A stretch of 64,000 nucleotides of DNA from Brevundimonas intermedia (lineage in GTDB: Bacteria > Pseudomonadota > Alphaproteobacteria > Caulobacterales > Caulobacteraceae). Position 1 is the stretch's first letter; each line of letters opens with the position of its first letter. The DNA lies in assembly GCF_027922165.1 (NCBI RefSeq), contig NZ_BSFD01000002.1, positions 1 through 64,000 on the forward strand, written 5' to 3'. Positions 50,045 through 51,937 of the stretch are shown one piece after another. The notes beneath the pieces were generated by a model. The model was given only the letters and a program-made list of their open reading frames with translations, was not told where the DNA came from and did not search any database. Both the position numbers and the translations under genes were made by a program.

Positions 50045-51937
50045 TCAATGCAGGGTGCGGAATTTCAGCGTCCCCGGCACGGTCTTCAGCGTCCGCAACG
50101 CCTCGGGATCATAGTCCCGGTCCACGTCGGTGATGACATAGCCGGTGCGCTCGTCGGTCTTCAGGTGCTGACCCAGGATGTTCAGCCCCGCCGCCGCCAG
50201 GGCCCGGTTCAGCTCGGCCAACACGCCCGGCTGGTTCTTGTGGATGTGCAGGATACGGTGCGCGCCCGACACCTCGGCCAGTTGCACGTTCGGCAGATTG
50301 ACGCTGAAGGTGGTGTCGCCCCGGTTCAGATAGCCCAGCAGCCGCTCAGCCGCGAACTCGGCAATGGCTTCCTGGGCCTCCTCGGTCGATCCGCCGATGT
50401 GCGGCGTCAGGATCATGTTCTTCATTCCCTGCAATGGGCTTTCGAACGGGTCCGAGTTGGTGCGCGGCTCCTCGGGGAAGACGTCCACCGCCGCCCCGGC
50501 GACCCGACCCGAGCCCATGGCCTGGGCCAGGGCGCCCACATCCACGACGTGACCGCGCGACAAGTTCAGGAACAGCGCCCCCTCCTTCATCCGGGCGAAC
50601 TGGGCCGCGCCGAAGATGTTGGAATTCTCGCGCCGCCCATCGACGTGCAGAGTCACGACATCGCTCTCGGCCAGCAGGGCGTCCAGCGAGCGCATGCGCC
50701 GGGCGTTGCCCAGGGCCAGCCGCTCCGACAGGTCATAGAACAGCACCCGCATGCCCAGGTTCTCGGCCAGGACCGACAACTGGCTGCCGATGGCGCCATA
50801 GCCGACGATGCCCAGGGTCTTGCCGCGCAGTTCCTTCGACCCCGTCGCCGACTTGTTCCATTGACCCACGTGCATGGCGGCCGACTTGTCCACCACGTCG
50901 CGCATCAGGACGATCATCAGACCAATGGCCAGTTCGACGACCGAGCGGGTGTTCGAATAGGGGGCGTTGAACACCGCCACGCCGTGATCTGCCGCGGCGT
51001 CCAGATCGATCTGGTTGGTGCCGATGCAGAAGGCCGCGATCGCCATCAACCGGTCGGCCTCTTCCAGCACCCGGCGGCTGACCGTGGTCTTGGAGCGGAT
51101 GCCCAGCACATGCACGCCCTTGATGGCGGCGATCAGGTCATCCTCATCCAGGGCGCCCTTGAGCGTCTCGACCGAATAGCCGGCCTCCTCCAGCCGTTCG
51201 ACGGCGGCAGGGTGGATATTCTCGAGCAGCAGCATCTTCATCCGGCTGCGCGGGAAGGACCAGCGGCCGACCAGTCCCTCGGCGTGCAGCACCTCGTCCA
51301 GTGAAGCGGCCTCGGCGTCGGCGACCTCGACCACCGGCGCGCGGCGGGCGACCTCGGTGAAGGCGTAGAAGGCGTCTGCTGCGCCCGCCAACTTGACCTC
51401 GGCGTCGTTCCAGCCGTCGCCGATCATGACGACCCGGCCCGACAGCTTCAGGGCATGGATGACGGCCGGTTTGCCGTCGGCCTGCGACAAGGGATTGGCG
51501 TCATCGACGCCCGTCACCCGCCCGTCGGCGTCATAGACCAGGTCGTTGCACAGCACCCGGTCTGCGGAGACTCCGAGCATCTCGGCCACCGGCGCGATGA
51601 CCTCGCGAAAGCCCCCGGACAGAATGACCACCTTGCCCTTGTGCTGCTGGAAGAAGTTCAGGTTCCGACGCACTGAGGCGGTCAGATGATCCGGCGCCGT
51701 CTCCGCCAGGGCCGCGACATGGGCGCGAGTCAGAGGCAGAAGCGCAAGACGACGACGCAAAGCCTCGCCGAAAGCCAGTTCGCCCGCCATGGCCTTGTCG
51801 GTCAGGTCCGCGATCTCGGCCCGGGTCTTCTCAGCCTCGGGCGAGTCCGCCAGGGCGACATCGGCCAAGGCTTCCAGCGTCTCGAAGGCGACGAGGGTCG
51901 AATCGAAGTCGAAGATCAATGTGGGGCGCGCGCTCAT
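50045..51937 (-). CDS. SerB-SerA fusion: phosphoserine phosphatase and phosphoglycerate dehydrogenase
   Basis: One 630-residue frame joins two serine-synthesis enzymes. Residues 1-215 are a HAD-type phosphoserine phosphatase: DFDST at 10-14 with both catalytic aspartates, LSGGF at 106-110, and GDGWND at 173-178. Residues 233-630 are an E. coli-type SerA: CIGTNQIDLDAAA, NAD motif GIVGYGAIG, LNLSRGHVVD, LTPHIGGSTEEAQEAIAEFA, and a C-terminal ACT domain HIHKNQPGVLAELNRALAAA, the serine-feedback site of E. coli SerA. The two enzymes catalyse the first and last steps. There is no ribosome binding site before the internal ATG at 51241, so a true fusion is likely. Confidence 0.9.
   Translation of the reverse strand: MSARPTLIFDFDSTLVAFETLEALADVALADSPEAEKTRAEIADLTDKAMAGELAFGEALRRRLALLPLTRAHVAALAETAPDHLTASVRRNLNFFQQHKGKVVILSGGFREVIAPVAEMLGVSADRVLCNDLVYDADGRVTGVDDANPLSQADGKPAVIHALKLSGRVVMIGDGWNDAEVKLAGAADAFYAFTEVARRAPVVEVADAEAASLDEVLHAEGLVGRWSFPRSRMKMLLLENIHPAAVERLEEAGYSVETLKGALDEDDLIAAIKGVHVLGIRSKTTVSRRVLEEADRLMAIAAFCIGTNQIDLDAAADHGVAVFNAPYSNTRSVVELAIGLMIVLMRDVVDKSAAMHVGQWNKSATGSKELRGKTLGIVGYGAIGSQLSVLAENLGMRVLFYDLSERLALGNARRMRSLDALLAESDVVTLHVDGRRENSNIFGAAQFARMKEGALFLNLSRGHVVDVGALAQAMGSGRVAGAAVDVFPEEPRTNSDPFESPLQGMKNMILTPHIGGSTEEAQEAIAEFAAERLLGYLNRGDTTFSVNLPNVQLAEVSGAHRILHIHKNQPGVLAELNRALAAAGLNILGQHLKTDERTGYVITDVDRDYDPEALRTLKTVPGTLKFRTLH

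Follow-up and report, generated by a model that had tools for sequence, protein, structure and literature searches.

A serB-serA fusion gene lies on the minus strand at positions 50045-51937 of a 64,000-nucleotide stretch of DNA from Brevundimonas intermedia (Caulobacteraceae; NCBI RefSeq assembly GCF_027922165.1, contig NZ_BSFD01000002.1, positions 1 to 64,000), referred to here as the window. The gene very probably encodes a bifunctional enzyme in which a phosphoserine phosphatase (PSP) is joined to a phosphoglycerate dehydrogenase (PGDH, SerA) that is inhibited by serine through its ACT domain, and which replaces both the long-type serA and the canonical serB. Reading the gene as a PSP-type phosphatase fused to SerA, as in the original prediction, is supported by the sequence, the predicted fold, the active-site residues and recurrence in two phyla, and is also backed by the lack in carriers of a canonical SerB over the curated cut-off and of a long SerA, and by the 12 of 46 loci outside the Caulobacteraceae that have a SerC-like gene no more than 2 kb downstream. 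In the proposed pathway, the C-terminal half would convert 3-phosphoglycerate to 3-phosphohydroxypyruvate with NAD+ (step one), a separate SerC encoded on another contig would make phosphoserine (step two), and the N-terminal HAD half would release serine from phosphoserine via an aspartyl-phosphate on D10 (step three). The dehydrogenase half is most likely held back by serine bound at its ACT domain, in the manner of E. coli SerA, and in part of the Caulobacteraceae the fusion would take the place of the long-type serA (beside serC) and the canonical serB found in the majority of the family. The gene and its parts are the following:

50045..51937, minus strand: serB-serA fusion gene (open reading frame list; Pfam and NCBIfam; 57 of 61 Brevundimonas genomes with one match over the full length)
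51254..51937, minus strand: HAD-IB phosphatase half with PSP fold, residues 1-228 (Pfam HAD 8-179; TIGR01488; AlphaFold model)
51896..51910, minus strand: catalytic motif DFDST, residues 10-14 (D10, D12, S13 and T14 the same in all 50 fused proteins)
51242..51277, minus strand: junction between the halves, about 12 residues (221-232), short in 85 aligned fused proteins
50048..51241, minus strand: E. coli-type PGDH half with ACT domain, residues 233-630 (NF008759; structure match 2p9g)
50048..50266, minus strand: C-terminal ACT domain, about residues 558-630 (Pfam ACT_AHAS_ss 562-624; H566, N568 and N586 in 50 of 50 fused proteins)

The single frame that had been claimed is borne out, running uninterrupted on the minus strand from ATG to stop over 630 residues plus the stop codon. 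Pfam places a HAD domain at residues 8-179, followed by a D-2-hydroxyacid dehydrogenase in two parts (236-547 and 338-515) and, at 562-624, a domain of ACT type. An AlphaFold model of the fusion, with 50 fused proteins as input, reaches a mean predicted local distance difference test score (pLDDT) of 90.8 and a predicted template modelling score (pTM) of 0.83, with a mean pLDDT of 77 at the junction (residues 221-230). The frame is joined in 57 of the 61 Brevundimonas genomes and in 77 of the best 80 of 557 relatives, and a sequencing or assembly error that joined two frames is therefore rejected as an explanation.

The dehydrogenase half had been described as an E. coli-type PGDH complete with its ACT domain, and both parts of this description agree with the curated models. 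The SerA model NF008759 (NCBIfam) matches residues 225-629 with 639.2 bits against a cut-off of 404, and the Pfam model ACT_AHAS_ss matches residues 562-624 with 34.3 bits (cut-off 27); PF01842, the plain ACT model, gives 25.5 bits and stays 1.5 under its own cut-off, also 27. The half aligns with the E. coli SerA chain 2p9g over 401 residues (Z 46.2, root mean square deviation 3.9). More generally, the C-terminal 400 residues share about 50% identity and the same fold with E. coli-type SerA (NF008759/PRK11790; PDB 1psd and 1yba), with Z about 46, a root mean square deviation of 3.2-4.4 and about 400 aligned residues, whereas E. coli SerA has no N-terminal phosphatase and the fusion adds one of about 228 residues. 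Across the 50 fused proteins used for residue comparison, the window's included, the glycines of the NAD motif GxGxxG (G379, G381 and G384) are identical, as are R461, E490 and H513, presumably the catalytic Arg, Glu and His by comparison with E. coli SerA. H566, N568 and N586 of the ACT domain, presumably the counterparts of the serine-binding H344, N346 and N364 of E. coli SerA, are likewise kept in all 50. The catalytic R, E and H and the serine-binding H, N and N of the E. coli enzyme are thus all kept in the fusion, and the SerA half probably retains inhibition by serine through its ACT domain.

The phosphatase half carries the three predicted motifs DFDST, LSGGF and GDGWND at residues 10-14, 106-110 and 173-178, and it passes the HAD-IB model TIGR01488 (cut-off 45 bits) with 74.0 bits for the whole protein and 77.1 bits for the half alone. 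A structure comparison of the whole protein barely covered residues 1-225, and the half was hence folded and searched alone. Its AlphaFold model, built from 37 sequences, has a mean pLDDT of 95.1 and a pTM of 0.91, and the top solved Foldseek matches are human PSP (6hyj) and a Francisella protein (3kd3), with template modelling scores normalized by query length of 0.83 and 0.85, respectively. Similarly, the matches of a profile built from 37 HAD halves include Francisella 3kd3 (2.2e-43) and human PSP 6hyy (2.5e-38). The fold is the one common to HAD-IB PSPs (human PSPH 1nnl and 6hyy, M. jannaschii PSP 1f5s and the PSP-like Francisella 3kd3), of which the catalytic aspartates, the lysine and the aligned substrate-binding Glu and Arg are kept in the fusion; the half differs from human PSP in sharing about 30% identity with it, in staying under the SerB equivalog cut-off and in being joined to SerA. 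All 50 fused proteins, that of the window among them, share residues D10, D12, S13, T14, E19, R63, K156, D174, D178 and R199. Part of the search for this set relied on the DFDST and GDGW motifs, and agreement at these positions is therefore no independent evidence. By comparison with the M. jannaschii and human enzymes, D10 and D12, K156, D174 and D178 are presumably the catalytic Asp pair, the Lys and the metal ligands, and E19 and R63 align with the residues that presumably contact the amino and carboxyl groups of the substrate phosphoserine in PSPs of solved structure. The claim that both halves keep their catalytic motifs therefore stands with key residues identical in all 50 fused proteins, and the kept catalytic, metal-ligand and substrate-binding residues point to a phosphoserine phosphatase that would be active on phosphoserine.

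The fusion is not peculiar to the window. In 57 of the 61 Brevundimonas genomes, its own included, the query gives a single match from residue 1-5 to residue 629-630; three of the other four have pieces at contig ends, and one (66% complete) has two pieces on one contig. With the fusion as query at 1e-60, matches are obtained in 70 of 199 family genomes, 68 of which have both halves in one frame (39 in genus g1, 25 in g14, two in g3 and one each in g7 and g9), while the remaining two, both of genus g17, have the SerA half alone in the match. A class-wide search gave a fused match in three of 385 genomes, all of the window's genus, the rows shown including only four family genomes. A named collection was searched with the phosphatase half, and the best 80 of 557 relatives, which form no census, were kept; 77 of these are fused, and of the other three, two run off a contig end (L103 and L108) and one is a split operon (L112). 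The fused proteins among these best 80 come from Brevundimonas, from other Caulobacteraceae including Asticcacaulis, and from many Bacteroidota (Hymenobacter, Runella, Belliella, Cyclobacterium, Gramella, Salegentibacter, Saprospiraceae and others), together with a Rhodanobacter metagenome-assembled genome (MAG) and a few other MAGs. The fusion is also carried by Brevundimonas diminuta ATCC 11568, a cultured strain, and such cultured carriers make it directly testable. Searches of plasmids (1e-60) and phages (1e-40) found no record covering 80% of the fusion. In genome G186 of genus g14 (L032:2197-4116, minus strand), counted among the 68, the HAD N-terminus appears frameshifted, which may be real or an assembly error. 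In a Bacteroidota MAG (L113:3971-5797, plus strand), the SerA half of the fused protein reaches 271 bits against the cut-off of 404; by eye its SRG and TPHIGGS motifs are lost and the HAD and ACT parts are still there, and this protein is possibly a regulatory or pseudo-enzyme form.

Carriers of the fusion have neither of the canonical genes at the thresholds used. A long-type SerA (TIGR01327 at 1e-100) is present in 122 of the 199 family genomes (120 over the cut-off), belonging to 15 genera that are disjoint from the six genera with the fused or split form, and the fused or split form (70 genomes) and the long SerA (122 genomes) never occur together among the 199. A canonical SerB over the cut-off is likewise found in 122 of the 199 and in none of the fused or split genera, where the best SerB E-value in each matching genome is 8e-27 or weaker and under the cut-off. 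The SerB and long-SerA sets are different 122s: G067 and G082 have a long SerA without a SerB over the cut-off, and G102 the reverse. Seven of the 199 genomes have neither SerA form, namely G145 (g1), G075 (g16) and five genomes of long-SerA genera in 360-520 contigs. Separate serA and serB genes were also sought elsewhere in the window's genome, as the original prediction had proposed, and none was found: the fusion itself is the best TIGR00338 match (94.6 bits, the next being 20.5), and the next SerA-like matches are 30-33% identical. The same was seen in 23 of 23 named fusion genomes (15 Bacteroidota and 8 Caulobacteraceae): the strongest SerB-like match coincides with the fusion, in frames of 632-682 residues, and no SerB over the cut-off was found; two of the 23 give a further weak match (37 and 39 bits). 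The fusion thus seems to take over the roles of separate serA and serB genes, and the canonical genes have presumably been lost in its carriers rather than never having been present. The curated serB model finds nothing over its cut-off in fusion genomes, and their serine pathway can therefore look incomplete when it is probably complete; annotation by best hit would name the fusion as SerA only.

The two halves were also compared by phylogeny, with both trees built by a quick method after removal of 17 near-duplicate rows. For the alignments, 75 of the 77 fused proteins were kept, without L113, in which the SerA half is degenerate, and L057, which breaks off at the end of a contig; L032, whose HAD N-terminus reads in another frame, was also left out. 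In the SerA-half tree, four SerA-only alphaproteobacterial rows are separated from the 70 fused or split rows with a support of 99, and 38 Caulobacteraceae rows form one clade, also with a support of 99. In the HAD-half tree, a long distance separates these halves from the canonical SerB of Caulobacteraceae. The rooting of this tree, with a branch of 4.2 changes per column on each side of the root, is not trusted; as rooted, it does not join all Caulobacteraceae rows and places Bacteroidota inside them. Unrooted, the SerA and HAD trees each separate the Caulobacteraceae from the Bacteroidota rows, and the two halves have therefore probably travelled together. Both halves are under purifying selection in the five closest pairs: the ratio of non-synonymous to synonymous substitution rates (dN/dS) is 0.03-0.14 in HAD and 0.01-0.04 in SerA.

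A split form of the two genes occurs in the g17 genomes G076 and G089, where a HAD gene lies immediately upstream of the SerA gene and the two overlap by four bases if SerA starts at a TTG there. The positions of these genes are as follows:

L034:4725-5384, minus strand: g17 HAD gene
L034:3478-4728, minus strand: g17 SerA gene
L035:1685-2344, plus strand: g17 HAD gene
L035, ending at 3591, plus strand: g17 SerA frame

For L035, the mechanical open reading frame start falls further upstream. A 607-residue frame in L034 was considered as a SerC-SerB fusion and rejected: its first 390 residues have no NCBIfam match, and a start at MTRYLIDFDST gives a stand-alone HAD gene of 219 residues instead. 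G076 and G089 are near relatives, and the split is therefore probably one event. The SerA tree places g17 inside the Caulobacteraceae (forks at 89 and 80) and the HAD tree leaves it unplaced; fission of the fusion is the likely origin of the split. The overlapping g17 genes, together with the canonical majority of the family, offer a natural comparison for the effect of the fusion on feedback control.

The middle step of the pathway had been noted as missing from the neighbourhood of the gene, and there is indeed no SerC in the window; the sole TIGR01365 SerC match of the genome sits on another contig. PF00266, tried as a model for SerC, gave SufS- and IscS-like proteins (L022 and L023), a glycine-cleavage-like frame (L024) and another aminotransferase frame (L025), all named by eye; SerC was found with TIGR01365. 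In long-SerA genomes, serC adjoins serA in 11 of 12 loci (the short locus being L126), and in 8 of 8 of the larger 16-kb loci, which share one genome with the set of 12. A TIGR01365 SerC is present in 10 of 10 fusion genomes tested, where serA is found within 1.5 kb of it in none and purA in nine. Near serC in the long-SerA 16-kb loci, purA follows serA in one of eight (L144), and this single example suggests that serA was lost from between serC and purA. In the 12 of 46 non-Caulobacteraceae loci with a SerC-like gene downstream, this gene encodes a class V aminotransferase on the same strand as the fusion, and these neighbour counts rest on flanks of 4 kb or less, some of them cut, with some loci being the same stretch twice. 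Two of the encoded proteins, tested by NCBIfam, are far under the SerC cut-offs:

L084:6204-7286, plus strand: downstream SerC-like aminotransferase
L087:6419-7489, plus strand: downstream SerC-like aminotransferase

A gene of the Bacteroidota species Echinicola vietnamensis, Echvi_2777, is reported to have been annotated as this fusion from mutant fitness data; a literature search aimed at it found no paper. In the part of the GapMind table available, this species is listed with a diverged SerC and without a gap at SerA or SerB (PMC7311316), which would fit the fusion reading if the species carries the fusion.

Several observations weigh against a bifunctional PSP-SerA. The SerB equivalog TIGR00338 matches residues 6-202 with 91.1 bits for the whole protein and 94.4-94.6 bits for the HAD half alone, under its curated cut-off of 144.15, and the half is therefore not filed in the SerB equivalog; four other fused or split HAD halves score 65-75 bits. 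Evolution is faster in the HAD half than in the SerA half; five more distant pairs give dN/dS values of 0.21-0.55 for HAD and 0.14-0.38 for SerA, and in these pairs dS looks saturated. SerC is not found near the fusion in 34 of 46 non-Caulobacteraceae and 43 of 43 Caulobacteraceae loci. The split-gene genome G076 has no TIGR01365 SerC, which could point to an aminotransferase of another type or to another substrate. The lack of a SerB over the cut-off in fusion genomes applies to the TIGR00338 type and leaves room for PSPs of the ThrH or histidine-phosphatase type. Finally, G145, a genome of the window's genus that is 99% complete (L161), has SerC with purA nearby and no match to the fusion, a long SerA or SerB; it is possible that it represents a serine auxotroph or an assembly gap.

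Among the alternatives, the HAD half could act on 3-phosphohydroxypyruvate, the product of its own dehydrogenase, giving hydroxypyruvate in one pass, with a serine-type aminotransferase ending a non-phosphorylated route. This has a precedent in an algal PSP-type domain that hydrolyses the product of the dehydrogenase to which it is fused, and the HAD profile also finds 6iuy, the bidomain enzyme of Dunaliella (1.4e-23, beginning at profile position 39; Foldseek rank 11); the missing TIGR01365 SerC of G076 would fit as well. Such a route is nevertheless quite unlikely in view of the SerC present in every fusion genome tested (10 of 10), the SerC-like gene downstream in 12 of 46 non-Caulobacteraceae loci, and the identity in 50 of 50 fused proteins of E19 and R63, aligned with what are presumably the phosphoserine-holding residues; moreover, without PSP activity in the fusion its genomes would have no visible serB.

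Alternatively, the phosphatase half could hydrolyse some other small phosphate or be a regulatory remnant, with serine made by an unrecognised phosphatase. The score of the half under the SerB cut-off, its faster evolution and the restriction of the genome searches to the TIGR00338 type of SerB among PSP families are all compatible with this, but it is judged highly improbable: all catalytic residues are kept in 50 of 50 fused proteins (two of the motifs concerned having helped to select the set), the structure search puts human PSP first, the half persists as its own overlapping gene in g17, and its dN/dS is 0.03-0.14 in the five closest pairs.

That the frame is translated mostly as two products from an internal SerA start, making the fusion of little consequence, is barely credible: Met233 and Met235 do sit where SerA homology begins in the window's protein and g17 has separate, overlapping genes, but Met233 is kept in only 14 and Met235 in only 12 of 50 fused proteins, no obvious ribosome-binding site was seen by eye before M233 (nor before the first ATG), and the joined frame recurs in two phyla. 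Given the poor conservation of these methionines and the short junction in 85 aligned fused proteins, it is unlikely that SerA is made on its own from a conserved internal start; an internal start for SerA had been named beforehand as an outcome that would undo the fusion.

Within the favoured reading of a bifunctional PSP-SerA, it is conceivable but rather doubtful that serine bound at the ACT domain of a SerA oligomer would also alter the phosphatase, and that the chain would scaffold SerC between the first and third sites. If this were true, one protein would set both entry into and exit from serine synthesis. The joined steps are non-consecutive, and ordinary channelling between neighbouring steps does not explain the fusion.

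The fusion is ordinary in its parts and unusual in combining two non-consecutive steps. Related arrangements are known from eukaryotes. In algal PSP-GPDH (Dunaliella 6iuy; Chlamydomonas), an N-terminal PSP-type HAD domain is likewise fused to an NAD-dependent dehydrogenase, and an enzyme of this type is described, in the passages available, as sufficient to make glycerol from dihydroxyacetone phosphate (PMC7468427); the dehydrogenase there is a glycerol-3-phosphate dehydrogenase and the steps are consecutive, whereas here it is SerA, a 2-hydroxyacid dehydrogenase, and the steps are one and three. Similarly, the PGDH-PSAT proteins of oomycetes and brown algae join two enzymes of the serine pathway, PGDH included, as far as the available passages describe them (PMC5715807; PMC2705460), but these eukaryotic proteins combine the consecutive steps one and two (SerA with SerC), in contrast to steps one and three in the bacterial PSP-SerA. 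Five fused candidates are mentioned, without their names, in the available part of a further source (PMC5764234). A PSP-SerA fusion was not found described in the open-access literature searched (titles, beginnings of abstracts and passages), a search that left most subscription journals, preprints and annotation databases outside its range, and earlier notice elsewhere is possible.

The neighbouring genes in the window lie on the same strand as the fusion. The gene directly downstream (48125-49930, minus strand) encodes a GDSL lipase/esterase autotransporter (Pfam), for which a link to serine is not evident. The gene directly upstream (52059-53546, minus strand) encodes a short-chain dehydrogenase of 495 residues, in which the Pfam match stops near residue 222 and is followed by a long C-terminal part without a Pfam match. 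A promoter scan at the fusion locus found no promoter-like site (0.2 expected), and a terminator scan found one terminator-like site, within the gene, with 0.9 expected.

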